64,000 nucleotides of DNA, taken from Gossypium raimondii. Its lineage: Eukaryota; Streptophyta; Magnoliopsida; Malvales; Malvaceae. A program made the position numbers and the translations under genes. Positions 22,107 through 54,581 of this stretch are shown piece by piece. The stretch spans positions 6,386,001-6,450,000 of the forward strand of contig NC_068569.1 in assembly GCF_025698545.1 (NCBI RefSeq). The letters run 5' to 3'. The notes under the pieces are model-generated. The model worked only from the letters and a program-made list of their open reading frames with translations. It had not been told where the DNA came from and did no database searches. Position 1 is the first letter of the stretch; the number at the start of each line of letters is the position of its first letter.

Positions 22107-22732
22107 GGGTCAGTTCTTCATTACTTAAAAAATTTACTTCTGACTCCAAAAATACTTTTGAAAAAAAACTGTGAAGAATAAGTTACTTTTGGCTGAAATT
22201 TGCTGAAAAGGAGAATCTAAAAATTTTAGCTTTTCCTCTCCCAATTCCTCTCCCAAAAACATTTTTTGTGCTTAATTACTTTTTCACCCCTCCTATAACA
22301 TAGTATTTTTCTTTTTTTTCTTGGTGCTTAATTACAAATGTGTTAAAATCATTAATTAAAAATAATAATAAAAAATGTTTTTAAAATACTAATTACAAAT
22401 ATTTAATTGTTATATTTAAATATTTAAAATATAGTTTATATATTCTAATTAAATTGTATAAATAATTCATATTTATTGCTTAAAAATATTTAAAATTTAT
22501 ATTTCATATATTAAAATATTAACAACAATTTATAATAATTTTTATATTTTTACTAAAATATAATAATATTAACTAATTTAAATATTATTTAAATGCATAT
22601 TTGTTAGTTGATAATAACATGTCTAAAATGGATATTTTATTTCTCAAAAGCAACTAAACACTCAAATTTTAAACTAAAATTTTCAAAAATACTTTTTCAC
22701 AATATTTTTCAAAAGCAATGAAGAACTGGCCC
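22107..22732. mobile_element. MITE copy 1 (626 bp) with terminal inverted repeats
   Basis: The left end GGGTCAGTTCTTCATTAC and the right end, read on the minus strand as GGGCCAGTTCTTCATTGC, are inverted copies. GTA flanks both ends (22104-22106 and 22733-22735), a possible 3-bp target duplication. The inside is very AT-rich and non-coding. Two further partial copies occur at about 41023 and 54200. The 3-bp duplication points to a PIF/Harbinger-like or CACTA-like origin, but the superfamily is not settled. Confidence 0.75.
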
Positions 22733-37568: not shown

Positions 37569-38314
37569 CTGCACTGAAGGACCTCAAAATCAACACAAAA
37601 TACCTTGGAAAATTAGAAGACAAAGCAAATTATAATTGAACTATATGCAATCCAAAATTTCCTGAAGCATTTCTCTATCTGATCGTCTAACCTCTACTGT
37701 AACAAAGACTAGGGTAAGTCTGCCAAGATACAATATTATAACAGAGACAACACGTATTGCCATTAAAAAAAACATTGAAAAAAAAATCAAACCAGGGCTA
37801 CCTTTAGAGCAGAAATTAACTACCTATATCTGGTGTGTAATGACCTTCATTTCATCAGGTACTGCAGATAAAAACCAGTTTGGGCGGTAAAGCACCAAAT
37901 TGTAGCCATTATGAAAATTATATTGGATGCTACTTGTACAACTGTCTACCAAGGGTAGCTGGATAAGGAAGAAAATAAGTACTCTCACAGCATATCCGAG
38001 GACGATTAGGACATGATAATCTATGAAAGACTGCATCACAGTCTCACAGGAAATCAACATATTGATTTCATAGACCTTAGCACGGTTAAACAGAGTTCCC
38101 CCTTGTTGAATGAGAAAGTCTTAATTCTTCTCTACTAACATTGAGTTTATTCCCAGGACGAAAGTGGGTTCAATTTAAATAGACTCTTTCCCATTGAAAA
38201 CCAAGGATTCCAAAATTCCATTTTCATCTCAAACCTTCTGCTAAAATACTTCTCTTTTAAAGGAACGTTAGAAAACAAATAGAAGAATCGGGGAGTGAAG
38301 ATTTGGTGGTGTAC

Positions 38315-38470
38315 CTGCGAGTAAGTGGTGATGAGAAACAAGTGAGACCCGGAATCAGATTTTTGGCGTTGGCTAAAGCAATCTGCCTTTTAATACACCA
38401 AACGAGCATTTCAATTTAAACACGAAACTCAGGACAGAGCAGTCTGCACTAACTGTGAGTCTGTGACCCC
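38315..38470 (-). promoter_or_regulatory. Non-coding first exon and core promoter of the dehydrogenase gene
   Basis: On the minus strand CTCGCAG|GTACACC at 38315 is a good splice donor that would join to the acceptor at 37569 over an intron of about 750 bp. The upstream text, with a run of 12 C at 38467-38478, is the likely promoter. This block is repeated at 52247-52402. The transcription start is not fixed. Confidence 0.55.
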
Positions 38471-38479
38471 CCCCCCCCT

Positions 38480-39577
38480 TTTATATATATTTTTAATCAA
38501 TCATAATATTGGGGTTATCCCCAATTTCCCCTTATAAAATGATGACGAAGTTCGTCGTAATATTGGTATTTGTTCTTTCACATGTGTATGGGTTTAGGGT
38601 TTTGAATCTGTTTTTTTCCTTCTCAAGTGTATTGGATTTTTCTTAGCTCTGGTCGTTGATTTCATTTGTTTATGTACTTTCCTACGAGTTATTAACTGTT
38701 CTGCGTAACGGCTTCTATCTTTTTCGTGTTTATATTTATAATATATCTATAATATATATAAAACAAAGTTGGTTTTCACAGTATTACTAAATTATCATTT
38801 AAAATATTTATAATTTAATTTATTTAATTTATTTAAATTATTAATTATAAATTTATTTTTTAAAATTTGTGATAATTTTGTTAATTCTATAATAAAATTA
38901 CAGTTTGAATAAAAATCTAAAGCATACTACTATTAAGTTAAAATATTTAATAATTAAAGTTAAAATATTATTTTAAATTTTTGAATTATATTTATTTTTA
39001 TAAGTAAACTGTTTTTATTATTTTGAGGATTTTATCTTTAAATTTTGATATTTTTCAAATTGTTTTTGCATGATAGTTAATTAATTTATCAAGTTATTCT
39101 TATATCAAATCTCAATTTATCTTTTATTTATCAAGTTGAAAAAAAACTAGTGTTTTAATTTTTTTCGATATTAAAAACACGATTTTGTGACCGAATGGCC
39201 ACTTCCGTGTCAGCCGTCAAGCTGGTTCAGCCAAGCTATCACAAGTTCGTATTTTTAATACCGGAAAATAAATTAAAAACATAAGTTTTTTTCAGCTAAT
39301 TTTTTTTCAAAATATTTTTGGGTGTAGCCTGACACATCGGCGGCACCAAATAAATTATTTTTTTACTTTTTTTCCGTCTATTGAAAAAAAATCGAATTTA
39401 CCATGCAAAATATGGGTGTCGCCGATTGATCTGACTACACCCAAAAAAATGCTTTTTTATTAGAAATAAAGTGGTGTCGCCGATTGGTCAGGCGGCACCT
39501 GTATTTTACTGTGTATTTTACCTATTCTCGTAAATATTATTCATGTTATACTATTTTCGTATACATTGATATGTTTT
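38480..39577. other. AT-rich spacer with repeated 'gtgtcgccgattg' modules
   Basis: AT-rich and non-coding. At about 39180-39505 the text GTGTCGCCGATTG appears twice (about 39415 and 39473), with related CGGCGGCACC/GGCGGCACC strings. These look like sub-modules of the adjacent Mutator-like element family or a second decayed element. No gene was seen. Confidence 0.4.
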
Positions 39578-40060
39578 GGCTATTTTACTCATCTAACCCC
39601 AAAAAATTTAATATTTAAGAAAATTACCCTAGTTCAAAAACATTCACCCAAATGACCTAAAATGAATAGTAAATTTGGGTTATGGGAACTCAATGGCCAG
39701 CACCCCCTTGTATTTTGGCCCCATGAGTGCCTGATGATTGTGTCAGGCTTTAAATATATATATTTTACTTTGGGACATCAATGGTCGGAATCAGGCTATT
39801 TTTTTTAAACCGTATCATATTGGTATGCTCAAATACCGGAATTTGAAAAAAAAATTGGGTTATGGTCATCTAATGGCCAGCACCAAAGTACTTAAAAAAA
39901 ATTTTAGGTGTTGGCCAATAAATGATCAGCACCAACACCTTTTTCAGGTCCCAAGACTATTTTTTTTCCTTTGGGACATTGATGGTCAGCATCACCTTTT
40001 TCAAGACCTGAATTTTTTTTTATTTTCAGACACTGATGACCAGTACCGAGTATTGAAAAA
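39578..40060 (+). repeat. Left terminal inverted repeat of the Mutator-like element
   Basis: Matches the right arm in reverse complement, for example ATCTAATGGCCAGCACCAAA on the left against ATCTAATGGCCGGCACCAAA from the right. A module ending GGGACATTGATGGTCAGCA is duplicated in tandem at its inner end. Confidence 0.75.
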
Positions 40061-40885
40061 TTATTTCTCTTAATTTTGGGAATCATATGGTCGAAACCCT
40101 CCCTCACTTTATATATAGGAGCTTGGTTTGGGTTTTTGAGAGAGCCATAAAAATGAAAGTGTTTTGTAATGGATTGCATATGGGAGTTTTTTGTAGTGTA
40201 CAACCAAATTTTGAGGTTGAATTGTATACTATCATGTTTTAACGGAGTTGAATTATATATTGTCATGTCAACCAAATGTTATGCCATTAAGGGTTGGATG
40301 ACTTTCTGCGCGATAGATGACTAACTGAGATGTCTAAAGCAAATAGACATTATCTACACTGTAAGAGCGTTTATTCTGCAACTTATAGGTGGGGTACTAA
40401 TGCAACGTATACCTGATTCAAGTAGAAGATGACTAATTGTGAAAAATTACTATTCAAAAATTTTGTATTACTTTTGTATCTTTAAATCAAATTTAGCCTG
40501 TATTATTTGTTGTTCGAAATTTATATTTTAGTGTATTAATTCTTTATAATGTTTGTATTTTTTTGTATTTGTAAATTTAGTTTAGTCGGTATTATACTAT
40601 TATTTGTGGTTTCAATTTTATATTTTCGTGTATTAATTTCTTAGAATGTTTGTATTATTTTGTATCTGTATTTTTTTGTATTTTTTTTCTTAGAATGTAG
40701 TTTCAATTAGGATCCATTAAGTGATCGGCGGTAATCAGTGGTGAACGACGGTGATCGAACGTGATCAGTGACGGTCGATGGTGAATGACAATTATAGTGG
40801 CGATCGGGTTTTGGGTTGAAGTATGCCATTTATAGTGGGGGACCATAGTGGCTAAGCAATGGTAAAATATATATATTTTAGGTCT

Positions 40886-41015
40886 TGACCTATTGGGTCA
40901 CGTCAGAGCAGGCCTAACCTACTAGTGCCAGCCATTCAAAGGCTGCCTGCCACTTGGACCCTGTTGGTGCTGGCCAATTGATTTTTTGTTTTGAGTGGCC
41001 TAACACAAGCCTATC
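40886..41015 (+). repeat. Direct repeat A (copy 1) inside the Mutator-like element
   Basis: Text including CTAGTGCCAGCCATTCAAAG and TGGCCAATTGAT recurs in the same orientation at 45272-45398, continuing after the solo LTR at 46633. The gene fragments lie between the two copies. Confidence 0.65.
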
Positions 41016-41022
41016 ATGCTAT

Positions 41023-41443
41023 GGGCCAGTTCTTTATTACTTTTGAGAAACGCTTTTGAGAAGTGCTTTTGAGAAATTTGGTTGTTTGGCATTGCTGTCA
41101 AAAAGTGCTTTTGAAGAATAAAATGTCCATCCATTTTAGACATGAGATTATAAAGTAACAAATATGTATTTAAATAATATTCAAATTTGTTAATATTATG
41201 ATATTTTAGTAAAAATATAAAGAAATAATTTATTATAACTTATTGTTAATATTTTAATATATAATATTAATTTTAAATATTTCTAAGTAATTAATATTAA
41301 TTATTTATAAAATTTAATTAGAATATATAAACTATATTTAAATATTTAAATATAAAATTAAATATTTGTAATTAGATATTGACACGATTGTATTATTATA
41401 AAAATTATTTTTATTTTTAATTAATGCTTTTAACACATTTGTA
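41023..41443. mobile_element. MITE copy 2, truncated
   Basis: Starts GGGCCAGTTCTTTATTAC and follows the reverse complement of copy 1 (22107-22732) for about 420 bp, up to the text ACACATTTGTA. The other end, about 170 bp in copy 1, is missing. Confidence 0.65.
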
Positions 41444-42439
41444 TTATTTTATTTTAAAATGTATTTGAATATATAACTCATATTATATACTAACATAACA
41501 TAGAAAACATAAACCTAATGAATTAAAATATTACATATATTTGGATTAAAGTTTTAAAAGAGATAATATTTATATACCAAATATAAATACTAAAATTTGT
41601 CAATAGCATTTACAATTTAAAGTGAATTCATTAAACTAGATGCTATATTTGATAAGCATATGAAAATGATTTGGTTATATTCAATAAATGATTTGGTTAA
41701 TACAATACTTATATTTGATAAGCATATGAAAATGATTTGGTTAATACAATACTTATATTTGATAAGCATATGAAAATGAAAGCCGAGACTGTCTGATCAA
41801 GAACGCAAAAAAGAATATTTCATGGAAAGAAGATTGTTAGGATGAATTCTTCAATTCCAAAGTCTCAGAAACCAAGCAATATGCCAAATTAGTGGACAGT
41901 CCACATCATTAACATTACATACTGTTTTAAGATGAACAAGAATGGAACTAAAGTGTCTACCGAGGAGTAACATACTGCTATTTTTGTAAATAAAGTACAG
42001 AAAGTGTATAAATAGATGGTTGAATAATACACATCCAGAAAATATCATTGCCAATAAGCCACTAACAAAGTAGCCTCATAAACAAAGAAATAGTTTTTAG
42101 GTTCTGCCTACATTTCATGATAATGACATAAAACTACATCAAAGATCAGAGTCGAACTTTGTTCATAAGAACATAAAATAAATCATTGGCAAGAAACAAT
42201 TTTGCAGCATGTCATATGTGTTGAGCATCCAAAGGAAAAAAGAAATTGTCAGCCAGTGGCTCTCATCTTACTCGCCCGCATAGTAGTGTCGCCTCACTAT
42301 GGCATCCTTAACCCCCATATGACATGTATACAAGCAGCCACCCCTAGAAAGGCAATTCCACTTCATATGCAGCGAAATAAAAATACCATGCTTCATACTT
42401 TTTCCTCATTTAGCAAGAAAGTTTCTTTACGGATTATGA
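41444..42439. other. Non-coding stretch inside the Mutator-like element
   Basis: AT-rich. A 55-bp-scale unit with the text TTGATAAGCATATGAAAATGA recurs three times at about 41649-41780. The part from about 41830 to 42430 could be captured 3' sequence of the CNX1 fragment, but this cannot be shown. Confidence 0.4.
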
Positions 42440-43008
42440 CCAAACATAACTTCAAAGCATTAGCTGACTTCATACTCAGAAGCCGACTACTCATTTGGTG
42501 ACCAGTGCTCTCAACGACAAATCTAAAATCCGAAAGAAACAAATTGCTTCTTAACACAATTATAATATCATTACAAAGTAGAATAAAATAGCAAAAACCA
42601 TGACACTTGCAGATAAATTAGGTCCAAGAAGGATCTAACTGAACAACAAATCGAAAAAGTGAGGAGACCTATGATCAAGGAAACTATAACTCTAAATTTA
42701 CCTTGCACTCTCCGATCCATCATTAGCCTCCCATCTGATAGTAGCATGATAAAATTCTGGCCGAATTGGATCCGTCTTTAGGAAGGGAGGTGCTTCAGAA
42801 AGAACCTTCAAGCCTAATTAGAGAATTTAACCTTACACAAATTTTGTTTTAGGAAGCTGAACAAGCTTTTGAGAAGTCATTAAAATGAAAACAGTAGGCA
42901 ATGTAGTACCTTCACCATAGTAACACCAACTGTAGAAAGTAGTCCCACTTCTGAAGCAGCTAATCTTTCTCCAGATTTTAGAATTTCCAGTGTATCAAAC
43001 AGAGAACT
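42440..43008 (-). pseudogene. CNX1: CNX1 (molybdopterin biosynthesis) gene fragment
   Basis: Three exon-like blocks on the minus strand match the E (molybdenum-insertion) domain of plant CNX1: about 43008-42910, including LKSGERLAASEVG and STVGVTMVKV; about 42815-42702, including TDPIRPEFYHATIRW; and 42522 to about 42440, reading FVVESTGHQMSSRLLSMKS. Splice sites remain and the last junction still closes in frame (AG|A). The catalytic middle of the domain, which belongs between the first and second block, is absent, and the text beyond LLSMKSANAL runs out of the family frame. It is a non-functional, internally deleted copy carrying introns, so it was captured from DNA rather than mRNA. Confidence 0.75.
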
Positions 43009-43565
43009 AAAGCAATAATACCAAATAGTAGAGTTTAAAACATATCACCAGTTTTTATTTGTCTAAAAAATGGGCATCTGTGAGAATATATATAGAATAT
43101 AAACATCAGAATCAATAATGGAGCTGGACGTTGACCAACTATGCAACACTTTACATAGATATGCTGACCTTTTAATTGAAAACATAATACAATCATAAAC
43201 AGCCTAAGCTGATGAAGGGTTAAATGAAAGAACCCTACAAGTGAATCAATCTGAAGAGTGCATGAACATAAAAAAGAACAATATAGCAAGCAAGCACTTA
43301 TGAAGCAGCTATAGCAAGGATCATTAACGTTTAACAGTATCCTATTAACTTAAAAAAAAAAAAAAAAGAGTAGTTCCAAGCTTCTAAGAAATCAAGAAAA
43401 AAACATCAATTCATGCACATAAGCAATTCAAAAACATCGTTGCCCTCTCCTCATAAGCAAGTTAAGATATAATTAAGATAAAACCATGCAAATAAACAAA
43501 TAATAGTACCATTAGGTGGAGCAAAAAAAAGTGAAGAACAAATAGTATAATAATAGTTACAAGAA

Positions 43566-44216
43566 CCTAGCGTTCAGTGTTGACAATTTTGTTGGTGAAA
43601 CAATCAAAAGACCCAAAATTCTATTTCCATTCAGCAACAAGGCCTCTTGATTCCCACTCAGTAACAACGCTCAACACATCGAGATTTGTCACTGTGAAAT
43701 AAGGAGCACCATGATCGAATAACAGCTCTCTCCCATCTTCACTTATCTCTCTAAATTCCCAATGTTACATATTACCAAAAACAACAAAAATTCATTAAAC
43801 TATGCACTTTAAAATTTTATTTCTGCATCCCAAAACACCAGCAAATAATAGAATATAAAAAAGGGCAGTCAAAATTCGTCAAAGAAAATGAATTTTTAAT
43901 AAAAAATAAGTGGAGAGAAACAAAAAAGGAACCTTCTTTGAGACATGCGGCCACCAGGACCCCTGGCAGAGTCAAAAAGGGTCACTGAAATTCCATTCCT
44001 TGCCAAAGTAGCGGCACATTACAAACAGACCCTGAAACTGTGAATTTCAAGTTTTTAAAGTTAACAAAATAATGATAATAATAAATCTAAAAAAAAGATC
44101 AGAGGAGTGGGGATTTAATTTTTGTTTATTAATGGGTGTAGAAAGAGAAAGTGAGATATTATAGTAGATAGTAAGTATGGATACTTCCGCTTCCCACCGC
44201 GGCAACCTTGGCGACA
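43566..44216 (-). pseudogene. Fragment of a renalase-like FAD/NAD(P)-binding oxidoreductase gene
   Basis: Exon-like blocks on the minus strand read VAAVGSG (near 44200-44180, start of a Rossmann fold), then CAATLARNGISVTLFDSARG and PGGRMSQRR (about 44022-43933), then EISEDGRELLFDHGAP through VTEWESRGLVAEWK (43750 leftwards) and NFGSFDCFTNKIVN. The junction CAAAGAAG|A GAG ATA keeps its splice signals and phase. In-frame stops interrupt the copy (before CAATLARN and after AEWK), and the rest of the enzyme is missing. It is the N-terminal part of a renalase-like gene (Arabidopsis At3g04650 type), in the same orientation as the CNX1 fragment. Confidence 0.75.
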
Positions 44217-44739
44217 ATGTTTTGCATTCTATCCCGGTCGGTGTCGTAAACGGCGATGCTAATCAATTGGGGCTCATCTGTATGCTAATCAATTTGGGCT
44301 CATCTGTAATTACTGTGCCTATTAAACAAAGCAGTTTTAACAGAATCCATGCGTTGGGGTTCGGAACCCAGACGCAAATTCAATAGAGAGAGGGTGAACA
44401 ATCGAAGAATGTAAAATTTCTGTAAAATTTTTGCTAAACTCTAAACAATCAGAAAATAACTAAAAACAAAGCAGAATGAATAATTAAAGAGAAGAAGAAG
44501 AAAAGAAACTCACCGGCGGAAGAGGAACAAAAAACCAGAGGAAAAGAAACAAAGGCAAAGAACTTGATATCTCAGGCAAAGAACAAGAGGGAAGAACGGT
44601 TTTTGGGGGAGAAAAATGTAAATTACCAGCCAAAAACACTTTTGGCTGAAGAAAAGGAGAAAATTTTAACTTCTTCGTCTGGAGAAAAGAACTTCTCCGA
44701 TGGCGAATTTTTTTCTGAAATGGAGGCCGTTCTTCGTTC
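44217..44739. other. Possible 5' region of the captured oxidoreductase fragment
   Basis: Contains an imperfect 26-bp tandem duplication (ATGCTAATCAATT-GGGCTCATCTGT, about 44260-44311) and then purine-rich text. No intact gene was seen. Confidence 0.35.
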
Positions 44740-45260
44740 CTTTTAAAAGAAAAGGACTTTTCATTTCAATTTATTTTTTAATTTCAATTCAAATTTCATT
44801 TAATTTTATATTCATTTCACATTTCATTTTATTTTTTCATTTAATTTTTTCATATTTTATTTTTCATTTAAAATTTTTTCATATTCATTTTTTTCTTTTC
44901 CATTTTTTCATTTCATTTCATATTCATTTCAACGTTATTTTCATTTCATATTCATTACAACTTTCATTTCATTTCATATTTCATTTCACATTTCATTTCT
45001 TTTTTTTTCATTTCAATTTATTTTTTCATATTCATCTTTTCTCATTTCAATTTTTTTAATATTCATTTTTTCTCATTTCAATTTATTTATTTTTCATTTC
45101 AATTTATATTTTAATTTCATTTCAAATTTCATTTCATTTCAAATATTTTCTTCTTTAATTAAATTTCATTTTATTTAATTTTTTTCTCATTTTAAATTTC
45201 ATGTTATTTCAAAATTTTAAATTTCATTTAAATTCAAAATTTTTCTCATTTAATTTTTTT
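44740..45260. repeat. TTTCA-rich low-complexity tract, part 1
   Basis: Dense TTTCATTTCA-type text derived from a TTTCA/TTTCAATT repeat. It resumes at about 46660-47280 on the other side of repeat A and the solo LTR. Open frames here are composition artefacts. Confidence 0.8.
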
Positions 45261-45271
45261 TCAAATCAAAG

Positions 45272-45398
45272 TTTTAGGCCCTGATTCGTCGGATCACGTC
45301 GGAACAGTCCTAGGCTGCTAGTGCCAGCCATTCAAAGGTCGTCTGCCACCTAGGCTCTGACTGGTGCCGACCAATTGATGGCCCGATTTGATAGGCCT
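45272..45398 (+). repeat. Direct repeat A (copy 2)
   Basis: Same orientation as 40886-41015: CTAGTGCCAGCCATTCAAAG, then a segment ending GGCCAATTGAT-like text. It is split by the solo LTR that begins at 45399. Confidence 0.65.
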
Positions 45399-46632
45399 TG
45401 TAACACCTGATTTTTTAGTGGTGTCAAAAACAGTGGTTTCGAGGCCACTAAATCCAACAATTAAGTTCGTAAATATTATTATTTAATATTTACGAGCCAA
45501 ATATGGTTTTAAAAAGATTTTTGATTTGGTAATTTATGTTTTATAACGATTTATTAGGTTCAAGTGGTAAGACCCTAAGGTCAAATACTTTTAGAAAGTG
45601 AAGTATAGGGACCTCATTTCTATAAACCGAGCCGTAAATATTTTTATAAATATTTACGGTGTGTCATTAAGGTGGTATTAAAGTTTTGTTGAAAATTTTT
45701 AAAGTTTCGTTTCTATAAACCGAGCTTCTGTTCAGCTTTCGAGCTTCTGTTGGCATATTCGAGAGGACCAACTCTTATGAGCTTCTGTTGATGATGTACT
45801 CTTATCCGTAAGTCATTCTTCGAATGGAAAAATCTCGGTTAGGTGATTTATTTAATAAATTTGAAAGACCTGTTTATTTATTTTTATATTAATTTGAATA
45901 TAGATGTATTTATCGATTGAAGTTGTGAATGACAATGAGTTGTCATGAATGATTTTTATTATTTGATTTATTATAGTTAGTTTGGTAAAATTTTTGTTTA
46001 TCTCGTCGAACTTACTAAGCTTCGTTAAGCTTACTTGTGTTGTTTAATGTCATTGTAGATTTTCGGAAGGTTGTACAATCGGAACGACATTCAAGTCATA
46101 CTATCCAGTTTATCTTGGTGGTTTTTGAAACGTTAAATTCGGATTATATGACATGTATAGACTCTTGTGCTGTTTTGTTAATGTTTGGCTTATGTAAATG
46201 TTATGAATGATATTTTGTGCAAATAACCAATTTGCAAAGGGTATGAGAATGAGGTATAGTTGTTACGCTAGTATGTGTGGCTTATATATATTTGATTTGT
46301 TGTGGTTGTGGTAACTTTGTTAGATATTTTGATTTGGTATTACTTGAATGAGTTGATGAATTGAATTAATGTGTATTTTGAGATTAAATTGTATATAATT
46401 GTGGTACTAATCAGGGTACATTGGTTAGGCACATATTAGGTTGATTTTGATGTGTTTTTGACCCGATTAATGTCATTTTGATTTTGTATTTTGGTTAGTA
46501 TTTGAGTTTCTTAAGGTCCAAGCAATTTGATTATGTTTGTATTGATGTATGGTTTGAATGATTTACTATTCCATTGTCCTGTAATACTCTGAAGCCGTGT
46601 TCCGGCGACGGATACGGGTTAGGGATGTTACA
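45399..46632 (+). mobile_element. Solo LTR, 1234 bp, inserted in repeat A
   Basis: Begins TGTAACACCTGATTTTTTAG and ends GGGTTAGGGATGTTACA, the TG...CA form of an LTR. The flanks GGCCT (left) and AGCCT (right) fit a 5-bp target duplication with one change. Its end is the reverse complement of the LTR end at 62147 (TGTAACAYCCCTAAC), so the two belong to related families, in opposite orientation. No internal retrotransposon genes lie next to it, which indicates loss by LTR-LTR recombination. Confidence 0.75.
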
Positions 46633-46659
46633 AGCCTGACACAGGCATGTCATGCCATG

Positions 46660-47280
46660 CCTTGCCACTTTTTTTTATTTCAATTTATTTTTTAATTTTA
46701 TTTCATTTTCATTGTTCTCTGTCATTTGAATTTCATTTCACTTTTTTTTTCTTTTTTAATTAAAACTTAAATTTAATTTTAATTTCAATTTTTTTATCTT
46801 TTTCAAATGCCATGTCAATTTTATTCTCATTTCAATTTCTTTTTAAGTTTCATTTGAATTTCGATTTCTTCATTTCAATCTTATTAAACTTATTAAAAAA
46901 AATCAATTCATTTCATTTCATCTGATTTATTTTTAATCTTATTAAAAAATCAATTCAGCCAAAACAGGCTTCGTTATGCGGGCCTTGACCTTGGTACTGC
47001 CCATTAGAAACAAATTTTGAAAGGCCTGTCATTTCAAATCAATTTTTTTTTCATTTAAATTTCATTTCATTTCATTTCATTTCAACTTCATTTCAATAAA
47101 AAAGCTTAATTTATTTTTTAAATTTTACTCATATATCTTTTTTAAATATAATTTCATTTCATTCCCAATTTTAATATAATTTTATTTCATTTCATTTCAA
47201 AATAAAATTCAATTTCTTTTAAATTACTCATATATCTTTTTAAATATAATTTCATTTCATTCCTAATTTTAATTAATATA
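46660..47280. repeat. TTTCA-rich low-complexity tract, part 2
   Basis: Continuation of the TTTCA-type low-complexity text, ending in a near-duplicate pair (ACTCATATATCTTTTTAAAT at about 47127 and 47225). Confidence 0.75.
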
Positions 47281-47392
47281 TTTAAAGTGTTTTAAATTAA
47301 ATATGTATGTATATTGTATTATAATTTGTATATTATTTAAAAAATGTATTTATTAATATATTTAATCATTTGTATCATTTGAATAAAGTATG

Positions 47393-50001
47393 TCATTTGG
47401 ATAATTTATATATTTTTACAACGTTTTTACAAGAACATGTGCTCAATAATATATCATTTGTCATCTTCCAGTCCGACATTAGAAGATGATTGACCGGAAA
47501 CATAGACATGATGTGGGCAAATTGATCAGTTGTGTCTGAATGTTCGGCACACTGTGTACAATTTAGGTTTGCATGTCTCCCTGACGTCCATGTCATTTTG
47601 AATTCTCGTCGATTGTGGTCAACCTTGATGTCTACGGAGACTACGGCCAGACACTATCTCAAAAGCAGGCGGTGGAACTTCTTAGCTAGAGACATCGGGG
47701 ATTATAGGAAATTCGTTTCCCTAGATATGCAATGTGTGTTGCAACGTGTAGATCTCGTATATGAATTGTTCAACATTTAAGTTTGCTCTCGCACACATTA
47801 CATGAACATGCGCACACGGATATCAAAGAGTTTGAAATATCTCGCACTTGCAACGTCTATTTTGCAAATCAACTGGGTACGACCTAGGCAGAAGACTCGA
47901 GCGATGGCTGATGTACTCTTGAACCCAGAAAGTCTCCAAGTTGCGCAAATACAAATCTGCGATCATCATTTGCGCCCTTTGACCTTTTGCTGCCGTGGCC
48001 TTTCAGATGGCCTCAACGTACACGTGCCTGGCCTCGATTTGCTTAGCTTGTCTCAACCCTATCCTAAGCATCAATGTGACCAACCTATAGATGTTACTGA
48101 GGAAACAGCAGAAAATGGCAGATGACGTATGCGCCTCAATACGGAGTTAACCGCTTCTACTAGGTCGGTTGTCATCTAGCAATACAGAAACCCCTCATCG
48201 TAACTTTGAGTCCATTTCCAGTTCTCCATGCAACCCAACCATGTCCGGAGATCTATTGGTAAAGATGACATCTAAGATTCAAGCCTCGCAAACCTTAGCC
48301 TGAGTCTTCGCGGTTCTAACTCATGAGCTGCATATGCAGTTTGGAATTAGTATTTTAAAAAATTACAGACTAATAAAATTTGAAAAGGAATTTTTGAAAT
48401 AAATACAAACAATATTTTTTAACTATGTTCACGAGTTCTTTTTTCCATTCTTTATTCTTATAATCTCTGTGGAAGTTTAACGCGATGTGCCAAATGCAAT
48501 AAATAAACCTCCACGGAACACCCGATCGCCTTATCGCAACAAATAGTCCCTTTGATCTGTCCGGTATAAGGAAAATGTTGTCTTTTCTGACAACGTGCCT
48601 CCGTAGATTTCTAAGAAAAAATTCTCAGGATTCGAAGCACTCACTCTTTATGATGGCAAAAGCGACCGGAAGTACATTTCGATTGTCGTCTTCTACAACA
48701 GCCATTAGGAGTATTTGCGTGTATTTACCGTACAACCAGGTTCTATCCATCTGTACCATCAGCTTGTAGTGAGGGAAGACCCTAACACATAGCTTGAACG
48801 TCCAAAATAATCAGTGAAAAACTCATTTCCCTGATTACATCTCGTCATTCAGGCCCTTATACGACAGTGTTTGCAAATCAGTCATCATCCCCGGGACATA
48901 CTCCCGCATCGCGACTGATGCATCCCAGTCACCATACAACTCCCGCATTGCCATTTGCTTCGCCCACCATGCCTTCCGATAAGACACTTTGTACTTGAAT
49001 CGAGCTTGCATGTCCGCAATAAGAACCGACACCTGAATAGTGGGCAACTCTTTTACCAAATTGATGACGCAGTTGCATATGATTTTTGCATCTAACTTTC
49101 GACGGTCTTGCCACATACGAGCAGATGTGCATGTATGTGGACATTCTATTTTCCTTATCATCTACATCTGAGTCTACTGCATTAATGCAGCTCGAACACG
49201 CCAGTTACACCTACTCAAGGCTTTCCAACACTCTGCGATGTATAAAGACTGCGTCGATTTCGTCACTTTATAGTCCATACCTAACTTCAAGTTGTGTTGT
49301 TTTATTGCATGTAAACAATATTTCTTGTTATCGAATTATTGTCCTACGAACAACTCTTCACTGTCGAATTCTTCATCAAGTAGATGAGCCGAAAAAATGT
49401 TTGTATATTCCAGAAACTCGTGTATAAGAGCCGTATAAGGATCCACGTTAGTCACAAAAGACTTTAAATTATTCCTTATAGTTATATTGGGGCCCGTGTT
49501 CCCGACCGAATGGGGGTTTACATTTTCACCCTCTACCGAGTCCTCTTCGTCTATGTCTTCAGGGATGTCATCCAAATCGAGGTTACTGAAATCATCGTTA
49601 GGATCACGGTGGGGCTGATCATTACCATCTTCTATGGTGGCCAACACCTCTGGATGGATTTTTAGACGAGTACGCGAGTTTGGGATGTTATGCGAACATC
49701 CACGAGTGTTTGGATTTTTGAGAGTTGGCATTAACCCTTCACAACCCGACTGATATTCCCAGTAGACGTTAAGATCAAAATCAATTCCAAAACGCTGGCT
49801 TACTGGAATTACAACTTGAATGAGATCCGATTTAGCTATCTCAGCAAACAACTCAATTGGGTTGGGATTATCCATCTTAGGATGGCAATAAATTGATATC
49901 ATTATCCCTAGATAGATCATCATCATCTTCAACATTTGCTTCCCGCAACGGTAGCTATCTTTGTACCGATCTTTCGTTTTAAATCCGCCAGCGAAACACA
50001 T
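47393..50001 (-). pseudogene. Broken Mutator-like (MULE) transposase
   Basis: From the ATG at 50001 the first open block runs 221 codons to 49336. It has an acidic C-terminal part like the N-terminal region of plant MULE transposases. After a frame change, 49161-48835 matches the MuDR-type block (FKYKVSYRKAWWAKQMAM, then YVPGMMTDLQT). Next, 48820-48540 matches the DDE core: MVQMDRTWLYGKYTQILLMA (first D), AFAIIKSE, LIPDRSKGL (second D), and then a WHIALNF-like block. A stop replaces the Trp in ES*EFF. Downstream to 47393 there are more stops. It is clearly inactive. Its 5' end points to the right arm of the element. Confidence 0.8.
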
Positions 50002-50229
50002 TTGTTAAATCTCATTCCCATTTTTTTCGACTTTGAAAGATACAACCTTCTTCAGTTTTATTTATCATTTCTCCATCAAAATGAATATAAACAAACAAAA
50101 TCAGGGAACTCATCTTCAAAAATTTTTGCTTCATTCTCAACAAAGAAAAAACTGATATTTTTAATCTTGATTTTCAACTAATAAAGCAAACAAAAAGCAA
50201 ACAAAAATTCAAATGGAAGACAAAACACC

Positions 50230-51231
50230 TATATATATATTTGATAAAGTTGGTGCTGGCCATCAGTGTCCCAAAACAATAAAATATTCAGGACCCAAAA
50301 AAGGTGTTGGTGTCGGCCATCTATTGGCCAGCACCAAATTTTCTTTTAAGTACTTTGGTGCCGGCCATTAGATGGCCATAACCCAATTTTTTTCAAATAC
50401 TGGTATTTGAGTATACTAGTATGATACAGTTTAAAAAAATACCCTGATGCCGGCCACTGATGTTCCAAAATAAAAAAATTTATTTTTTTAAAGCCTGACA
50501 CAATCATCAAGCAATCATGGGGACAAAATACAAGGGAGTGCCGGCTAGTAGTGAGTAAAATCCGATTCAATTCGAAAAACTCAATAAAATTTTCAAAGTT
50601 TAAATTAAATAGTTCGAGTTATTTGAGTTAATCAAGTTATTTGAATCAACTCAAATAAAAAAATTAAGTTTTTCGATTTAACTCGAATATGAATTACACA
50701 ATTCGAGTTATCCGAAAATCCGAATAAGAAAAGGTAAAACTAAGCCATATTGATAAATATTTATCTCTTCTAAAGTTAAAAGTCAAAACCATTAAGTTAA
50801 AAGGCAAAACTATGTTGTTTTGAAAAATGTTTACTAATTAATTTAAAAAGCAAAACCATTATATTTTTTATGTAGTTAAATAATTTTATACTTCATTTAC
50901 TAGTTAAACAATCGGTTCATGTAAACGCAACATTGAGTATAAATAATAGAATTCGTTAACTTGACTCGAAATTTTTTGACTTGATTCGATCCGATTCGAA
51001 AAAAATTCAAATTGAGTTCGGTTGCTAAAATAGGATTCGTCTACTCGACTAACTCGAAATTTTTTTACTCGATTCGACTCGACTCGATTGTATACTCACC
51101 CCTAGTGCCGGCCATTGGGTTTTCATAACCTAAATTTACTGTTCATTTCAAGTCATTTGGATGAATGTTTTTGAACCAGGATTTTTTTTATAAATATTAA
51201 ATATTTTTGGATTAGAGGGGTAAAATAGCCA
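50230..51231 (-). repeat. Right terminal inverted repeat of the Mutator-like element
   Basis: Reverse complement of the left arm (39578-40060). It is interrupted by a hAT-type insertion at 50546-51104; without it the two halves join exactly where the left arm is continuous. Confidence 0.75.
50546..51104. mobile_element. hAT-type non-autonomous element (559 bp) nested in the right arm
   Basis: The right end read on the minus strand is TAGGGGTGAGTATACAATCG and the left end is TAGTAGTGAGTAAAATCC, the TAGGGGTG-type ends of plant hAT elements. It is flanked by a perfect 8-bp direct repeat GTGCCGGC (50538-50545 and 51105-51112), the hAT target-site length. The inside is non-coding, with repeated 'ttcgagtta/actcgaa' text. 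Confidence 0.88.
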
Positions 51232-52246
51232 TTTATTTTATATTAATCATGAAAAAAAAAACCTCATATTTATTGGATTTACATTATGATTTGGCTGATT
51301 TTAACAAAAAAAGTTTACGTAAAATATTAAAAATATAAATTTATTTAAATGATTTTTATAATGATTAAATTAAGGAAAACATTTTATTCCTTAATTAATT
51401 TTATTTTTAAATATATTATTTAATTTTACAAATTCTATTTAAAGTTTTAAGTTTACTCATTGATTCAAACCTCGACTTAAAGATTTGTATTGGATAAAAA
51501 CTTAAAAAGGTTAAAATAAGTTATAAGTTTATGTATTTTTGTAAATTTAAAATTTAATCTTTATATATATTTTTATTTAGAAGTTAGTTATTTAATTTTT
51601 CAAATTTTAAAATTTAAGTTCAACTCTTGATACCATTAATATCATTTTGCTAAATTTAGGTTCATTTGCATATATTATCAAGTGAGTATTCTTTTTATTT
51701 CAAAATATCACCTCAAAAAATAAAATTTAGATCTGAAAAATGAAATCTTAAAAAAGAATTCTAAAAGTAAAATTATGATGACTAAATTCTAAATTTGTAA
51801 ACAATACAAAGACATATGATATATTTTAACTAAATTTAAATATTACTCGAATAATGATTATATTCATTTTAAACAATATATGTAAAAGAACGAATATTAA
51901 AGTGTTGGTTTCAAACATTTACTCATATCAAATTAAAATTTATACTTGTAAAATATTTTTATTTATTTTAAATATTATTTAAAGGAACTAGTACATTTAT
52001 TCGTAAGTCAATTTAGATTTTATGTCTGATTCACTTAAAAAAGTTATTTTTGTTTTTAATTATTTTGAACTGAGAAATACAATTGCAAGCACAACCCAAT
52101 TGCAAATTCTAATGAAATATCTATAACTGTTCAATACTAGACTTAATTATCAAGTTAATGTATCTAATTCTTAAATCATTATCAGTATATAACAGAAAAG
52201 AGAAATAAAGAATCGGAGACTAAGGTAAATTATATTTAAAAGAAGC
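51232..52246. other. AT-rich spacer
   Basis: No coding signal and no repeat boundary that I can support. Confidence 0.4.
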
Positions 52247-52402
52247 CGAAGATTTTGTGGGTTTACCTGCGAGGAAAATGGTGTGAGAAGAAACAAGCGA
52301 GACCCAGAACCAGATTTGTTGCGCCTGCTAAAGCGGTGTGCCTAGCGAGCATTTCAATTTAAACACGAAGCTCATTACAGAAGACAACGCACTAATTGTG
52401 AC
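52247..52402 (-). repeat. Second copy of the dehydrogenase promoter/first-exon block
   Basis: Aligns in the same orientation with about 38295-38467: shared text includes ACCTGCGAG, GAGACCC, GCTAAAGC and AGCATTTCAATTTAAACACG. Even the splice donor (minus strand CTCGCAG|GTAAACC) is kept. No dehydrogenase coding exon follows it to the left, so it is a promoter/leader fragment without its gene. Confidence 0.75.
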
Positions 52403-54199: not shown

Positions 54200-54581
54200 T
54201 TCATCAATTGGAATATAATATTTAATTATTATATTTAAATATTTAAATATCATTTAAATATTCTAATTAAATTTAATAAATAATTAATATTAATTACTTA
54301 AAAATATTTAAAATTAATATTATATATTAAAATATTAACAATAAGTTATAATAAATTATTTTTATATTTTTACTAAAATATTATAATATTAATTAATTTG
54401 AATATTATTTAAATACATATTTGTTACTTTATAATATCATGTTTAAAATGGACATTTTATTCTTCAAAAGTACTTTTTGACAGCAATACGAAACACTCAA
54501 AATTTTCAAAAGTACTTCTCAAAATAACTTTTCCACAGCATTTTTCTACAGCTCTTTTCAAAAGCAATGAAGAACTGACCC
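54200..54581. mobile_element. MITE copy 3, right portion
   Basis: Follows copy 1 in the same orientation and ends AAAGCAATGAAGAACTGACC+C, matching the copy 1 right terminus, then TTA. The left boundary is diverged and uncertain. Confidence 0.6.

Follow-up and report, generated by a model that had tools for sequence, protein, structure and literature searches.

We analysed a window of 64,000 nucleotides from Gossypium raimondii, corresponding to C5:6386001-6450000 (contig NC_068569.1) of a 750.8 Mb assembly of 281 contigs (GCF_025698545.1), in which the genome searches were performed. In this window a decayed Mutator-like element (MULE) encloses pieces of several host genes, among them CNX1 and a renalase-like gene. 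An earlier inspection of the letters, hereafter called the sequence-only reading, had interpreted the region as one single Pack-MULE-like capture element and had remarked on the rarity of a transposase relic and captured genes in the same element. Our analysis indicated that the gene pieces lie in a second element nested within the MULE. This second element has its own left terminal repeat and copies elsewhere in the genome, and two sister MULEs show its site empty. Since the MULE and the gene-carrying element are separate, the supposed rarity disappears.

The outer element has long terminal inverted repeats, a candidate 9-bp target duplication and a transposase domain, as a MULE does. Comparison of the window with itself paired its arms at 39577-39703 and 51105-51231 (84%, E 6e-34) and at 39696-40004 and 50241-50545 (83%, E 2e-85), so that the long inverted arms seen by the sequence-only reading were confirmed. 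The outer termini are GGCTATTTTAC...GTAAAATAGCC, and the candidate duplication, ATATGTTTT at 39569-39577 and ATTTATTTT at 51231-51239, matches in 7 of 9 positions. The decayed transposase noticed earlier was also recovered; it reads on the minus strand and contains in-frame stops, with a Pfam MULE match at 48625-48810 (E 1e-4, under the curated cut-off) that extends weakly into 48370-48624 (E 0.024), the frame being unchanged across a stop. The claim that the MULE had been broken by other insertions held as well, and the gap in its right arm proved to be a 559-bp insertion with an 8-bp duplication, GTGCCGGC.

To place the gene pieces relative to the MULE, relatives of both were collected from the genome; because only the best candidates were scored in these searches (usually 40), the numbers of matches are minima. 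The arm query 39577-40130 gave at least 72 matches (best 40 of 303 candidates). The sample of sister MULEs consisted of 16 stretches representing 11 elements, 10 of which were picked for facing arms 6-17 kb apart, while L024 was picked as the best arm match beyond the window. All 11 resemble the window element in the arms and in some or all of the transposase region, at approximately 67-91% identity. Both ends were found in eight of them, with 9-bp duplications matching at 9/9 positions in four, at 8/9 in two and poorly in two (6/9 and 1/9); in the other three, one end was not found. The gene fragments were present in none of the 11 sisters, and at a threshold of >70 bits none of them matched anything within 41024-44732. 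Moreover, L010 and L024 displayed an empty site, in which the sequence ending at 41022 runs within about 15 bases into that starting at 44758-44761, and the second copy of the MULE's internal repeat (45272-45398 plus 46633-46800) has the same unbroken order. Therefore, the DNA from 41023 to about 44761 is an insertion. Judged by these alignments, the MULE is old, has many relatives and is only the landing site of the gene-carrying element.

The cargo itself was found repeatedly outside the MULE. A query of 41780-44620 gave at least 50 matches (best 40 of 150 candidates), including near-full copies with the order kept on C10, C7 and C13, and one on C3 that is split. Among the same candidates, CNX1 and renalase are joined only in the window copy and these four sisters. 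The fragments thus keep their order at four further genomic positions without the MULE, close in spirit to the observation that the sequence-only reading had itself named as telling against it, namely fragments in that order in relatives lacking the element. With their flanks, the copies match the window from 41023 (from approximately 41024-41038 in L031) to 44765 (to 44688 in L026). They are 92-95% identical in pieces with gaps counted, one 214-bp piece of L026 being 89% identical; compared ungapped and segment by segment, they are 93-100% identical among themselves and to the source genes, and 87-97% in the right block. Two copies are complete, L027 with 3812 bp between TAA/TAA and L028 with 3598 bp between TTA/TTA, and the true right ends, as judged from L027-L029, are some 37 bp or more past the point where the window copy stops. 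A candidate right end at 44723-44746 (6 mismatches) was dropped once the complete sisters had revealed the real ends. In five flanks of cargo copies, 0.5-2.1 kb each, no MULE DNA was detected except for one match in L027. As far as these comparisons go, the gene fragments sit in a separate, smaller element that multiplied across the genome. The copy on C3 (L029/L031, C3:47301421-47312319) is interrupted by approximately 10.9 kb.

Source genes were found for three of the captured genes. The renalase-like exons matched PDB entry 3kkj (E 2e-8) and NAD_binding_8 (4.5e-9), and the source gene lies at C13:48288539-48289833 (96.4% over 42983-44280). For CNX1, PDB entry 6rms, itself named CNX1, was matched with E 1.6e-24 and MoeA_C with 2.5e-5, by a query holding about a dozen residues later shown to be intronic; its source is on C5 and is 95.4-97.3% identical over three pieces, with approximately 1.14 kb and 0.15 kb missing. 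Both source genes expected by the sequence-only reading were therefore found in the same genome. It had also correctly placed the two fragments on the same strand (minus) with introns kept, while CNX1 turned out to be three pieces, with intervening exons missing and one acceptor lost. The stretch GLKVLSEAPPFLK, at one point taken as CNX1 coding sequence, was dropped as intron. Between renalase exons 2 and 3 the GT...AG is kept and the codon phase is intact at the junction, and the CNX1 intron from about 42690 to about 42520 also retains GT...AG. An exon of the SnRK2 source gene (L039) matched PDB entries for SAPK10 and SRK2 (7e-9 and weaker) and gave no Pfam kinase match. For the exon piece at 44304-44405, tested via its longer relative in L043, there was no Pfam or PDB identification; it reads like a GDSQ-type protein, a name that is our assumption and has no database match behind it. 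Letter-by-letter reading, which replaced overlaps taken from BLAST coordinates, revealed 4, 4 and 1 bp of shared sequence at the three cargo junctions inspected. In the window copy, the renalase frame is broken by a frameshift in exon 2 and a premature stop in exon 3, and a protein function of this copy has no support. Exons 2-3 are open in L026, L027 and L029 and readable in L028, with changes at the start of exon 3.

Table 1. Features of the outer MULE and of the element nested in it (window coordinates; L numbers denote genome loci).
Feature	Position	Strand	Basis or remark
Outer MULE, decayed, long terminal inverted repeats	39578-51230		about 6.1 kb minus its three insertions
MULE left arm	39578-40004	+	self-alignment and genome-wide arm search
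MULE internal repeat, copy 1	40876-41022	+	window self-comparison; flank of the Pack-PIF insertion
Nested non-autonomous Pack-PIF (PIF/Harbinger) with gene fragments, right terminus lost	41023-44761		3.7 kb
PIF left end (GGGCCAGTTCTT...)	41023-41647	+	identity to L059/L060, both encoding DDE_Tnp_4
Older acquired or derived DNA	41648-42318		stepwise sharing with other family members
SnRK2 kinase gene piece, 148 bp, non-coding there	42316-42463	-	source C12:3304800-3309300 (L039), 94.6%
CNX1 piece, two exons and the intron between	42454-42780	-	L037 1301-1627, 95.4%
CNX1 intron piece	42776-42867	-	L037 73-164, 95.7%; about 1.14 kb of gene skipped at the join
CNX1 exon piece without 5' end and acceptor	42874-42983	-	L038 2710-2819, 97.3%
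Renalase-like gene, exons 1-3 and introns	42983-44280	-	L030 1501-2795, 96.4%
Exon piece common to the window element and L043	44304-44405	-	sequence comparison
PIF right end minus its last ~37 bp	44443-44761	+	MULE DNA joined at shared ACTTTT
MULE internal repeat, copy 2	45272-45398 and 46633-46657 (to 46800 in empty-site comparison)		solo long terminal repeat in between
Solo long terminal repeat (TG...CA)	45399-46632		5-bp duplication, 4/5; inside MULE internal repeat copy 2
MULE transposase relic with in-frame stops	48370-50004	-	Pfam MULE match
MULE right arm, interrupted by 559-bp insertion	50241-51230	-	self-alignment
559-bp miniature element in MULE right arm	50546-51104		8-bp duplication GTGCCGGC, ends TAGNRGTGAGTA

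To reveal the family of the inner element, its ends were examined across the genome. A scan with the terminal repeat pattern TWAGGGCCAGTTCTTTATTGCTTTTGA (with TWA), allowing up to 2 mismatches, gave 274 sites, and the same pattern reversed, used as a control, gave 0. Twelve elements showed the ends of this family on both sides, and nine of them (L027, L028, L041-L046 and L060+L061) are flanked by an identical TTA or TAA duplication. A profile search with PF13359 (DDE_Tnp_4) gave at least 168 genome matches (best 150 of 1326 candidates); among the matches listed, three, on C13, C6 and C10, lie approximately 0.8 kb inside left ends of the family. The left end of the window element is 93.6% identical to L059 (C13:49406900-49412700) over 41023-41647 and 92.5% identical to L060 over 41054-41647. 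Between L059 and L060 the identity is 93% over 3.5 kb, and both hold transposase and Myb protein frames; the L059 frames matched DDE_Tnp_4 (1.8e-11) and Myb_DNA-bind_3 (6e-23) in Pfam, and the genome search reported DDE_Tnp_4 in both loci. L060 together with L061 forms a complete element of 4.9 kb on C6 (C6:38116200-38121450) with TTA/TTA, whose right end aligned to that of the window element with a score of 124, the maximum of 50 shuffles being 35. The TTA/TAA duplications of PIF/Harbinger elements are thus present in the relatives, and ends are shared, via the left one, with elements of the same family that have DDE_Tnp_4 and Myb/SANT frames; therefore, the inner element belongs to PIF/Harbinger and is a Pack-PIF. 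Like other Pack-TYPE elements it is non-autonomous and multi-copy, and the genome contains parent genes for its CNX1, renalase and SnRK2 pieces. L059 and L060+L061 are candidate transposase sources.

Further family members were found to carry other cargo. Seven elements (L040-L046) were picked for left and right family ends about 2.4-3.9 kb apart; all seven share both ends, with TAA/TAA in six and TTT/TTA in L040, and their interiors differ from the cargo in the window. L040 and L044 are 95% identical throughout, L042 shares 1.2 kb with both, and L041 and L045 share 1.7 kb. The interiors contain exons of an aquaporin in L042 (MIP 4e-29), of a K+ transporter in L043 (3e-6) and of a leucine-rich repeat (LRR) protein in L046 (LRR_8 6e-14), and two frames of L040 gave no match. 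In L035 (the C11:48946337 region), one of five left-end loci (L032-L036), SnRK2 parts are combined with PP2A B55 (3dw8 6e-10) and with RNase P p30, the latter scoring under its cut-off (1.7e-5). The SnRK2 parts of L034 are common to L032 and L033. The top match of L034 (E 6e-7) is an entry named CAP REPEAT; a purple acid phosphatase in this locus was too weak to be counted (acid phosphatases from E 0.015, Metallophos E 0.06).

The extent of DNA shared with the window element changes in steps among these members. From the left end, sharing stops at 41588 (L041, L045), 41621 (L043), 41647 (L046, L059, L060), 41762 (L042), 41809 (L040, L044), 42318 (L035, L036) or 42463 (L032-L034), and similar steps were obtained with a search using the left end (best 40 of 1779 candidates). 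The right shared block starts at 44502 (L040, L044), 44481 (L046), 44443 (L045), 44401 (L041), 44308 (L042) or 44304 (L043, in two separated pieces). The shared DNA appears to shrink stepwise inwards, as if the most recent captures lay innermost. A single simple series is weakened by the two sides ranking the members differently, L043 sharing little on the left but the most on the right. Shortened blocks could also result from internal deletion.

The nesting, the empty site, the sister copies of the cargo, the target duplications of the complete ones, the three source genes and the related element coding for PIF-type proteins were all observed directly, and we consider it highly probable that a non-autonomous Pack-PIF with several host-gene fragments transposed into an older, decaying MULE. 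Several observations weigh against this explanation. The window copy lacks a right terminal repeat and a target duplication, and its left triplet is TAT rather than TTA or TAA, so that its membership in the family rests on its left end and its sisters; L026 also has no right end. Three of the 12 two-ended elements do not fit the expected duplication, namely L040 (TTT/TTA), a miniature inverted-repeat transposable element (MITE) at 22107-22732 (TAC/TAC) and the split copy L029/L031 (CAA/TGA), and the right end of L060, compared with five right ends of the family, reaches only 77-78% identity. Sister MULE L022, in a looser search, matches the AT-rich stretch 41160-41267 (109 bp, 73%, E 1e-6), and L011/L012 match 44733-44870 across the right boundary (152 bp, 71%); neither match involves a gene fragment. 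Finally, the right flank of L027 (the C7:18362881 region) matches the MULE end over 56 bp (79%, E 2e-5), perhaps a separate small MULE end. The sequence-only reading was right that a gene-capture element with unrelated genes exists here, and the element is PIF/Harbinger-type and nested rather than a MULE. Capture of the CNX1 and renalase fragments by the MULE itself would agree with their position between long MULE arms and beside a transposase relic, but this scenario is very improbable: the fragments are missing from all 11 sister MULEs, empty sites are seen, and the cargo does not lie directly between MULE repeats. It belongs to a unit that has ends of its own and recurs in other places without bounding MULE arms (apart from the match in L027), directly flanked by TTA or TAA in L027 and L028. 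Still less credible is the hypothesis that the fragments arose without transposition, as host-gene relics or by segmental duplication. The retained introns and the 94.6-97.3% identity to the source genes would suit it, but it would have to join sources on C5, C12 and C13 in one order and place the unit at five positions with transposon ends, and copies of the joined unit flanked by target duplications were found (L027, L028).

How the Pack-PIF obtained its cargo is a separate question. The element would have been moved in trans by a PIF transposase at TTA/TAA sites, and repair synthesis that switched templates at 1-4 bp of shared sequence may have copied in the gene pieces, at excision or later. 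Every round would place new cargo inside, because the ends alone are needed for mobility. A small deletion at the shared ACTTTT presumably took the right end of the window copy, which is therefore probably immobile. The template-switch route is based on three junctions, and an alternative is that the same Pack-PIF gained its cargo when neighbouring insertions fused and the intervening DNA was mobilised, a model of Catoni 2019 as told in Gisby and Catoni 2022 (PMC8903248). Such fusion likewise predicts young cargo inside, as observed. However, L026-L028 showed no internal terminal repeat when up to 1 mismatch in 12 was allowed, the 4-9 kb around the three source genes contained no family end and just two 12-mers that resemble chance matches (1 mismatch in L039, 2 in L037), and the CNX1 pieces are internally deleted, once at a 4-bp match. 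This evidence against fusion is weak, because internal ends can be lost, and we regard fusion as a doubtful but substantial alternative to template switching.

Some other features of the region were noted. A direct repeat at 38297-38458 and 52248-52401 (73%) brackets the whole MULE and resembles the 5' part of a duplicated gene or a promoter, and a short imperfect palindrome at 39140-39292 (72% to its own reverse complement) lies immediately outside the left MULE arm. The 559-bp miniature element in the right arm is one that we take to be hAT-type. Two more insertions in the window have the same PIF terminal repeat as the nested element, the complete 626-bp MITE at 22107-22732 and a copy at approximately 54217-54581 on the minus strand.

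Pack-PIFs are known from maize and rice (Gisby and Catoni 2022, PMC8903248), and passages of that article present a model in which members share their ends and newer DNA lies inside, with which the stepwise shared extents agree. As these passages describe the maize and rice Pack-PIF and Pack-TYPE elements, the cotton element resembles them in being non-autonomous and multi-copy, in its TTA/TAA duplications, in its captured pieces and in the inner position of newer DNA. It differs from their cluster #18, for which captures of 163 bp and 58 bp are given, in that its captures reach 1.3 kb, contain introns and come from four genes within one element. The host here is a dicot; Gossypium is unmentioned in the main text of that article, and a passage in it reports that Arabidopsis yielded no new Pack superfamily. 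Compared with Pack-MULEs, the arrangement of gene fragments with introns between terminal repeats is alike, whereas the capturing element here is bounded by PIF ends with 3-bp duplications instead of MULE ends with 9-bp duplications. Compared with PIF/Harbinger elements that have DDE_Tnp_4 and Myb/SANT genes, it shares the left end with L059 and L060 and lacks both genes. Our literature searches, covering titles and the starts of abstracts, found no description of this cotton family; as far as such searches reach, it is a new Pack-PIF family in cotton.

Tentatively, it is quite conceivable that these elements represent one branch of a large, recently active, gene-accreting PIF lineage, in which one set of ends, with a transposase source still present, repeatedly took different captures inside (CNX1, renalase, SnRK2, aquaporin, K+ transporter, LRR protein, PP2A B55, RNase P p30 and others) and left a readable capture stratigraphy; some of the copies with open renalase exons may make fused transcripts. 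Genes between MULE arms are not necessarily captures by the MULE, and reading the sequence alone invites that error. Numerous copies, identified source genes, cargo shared in steps and a candidate transposase source make this a family in which the order and mechanism of gene capture by non-MULE transposons could be tested directly.

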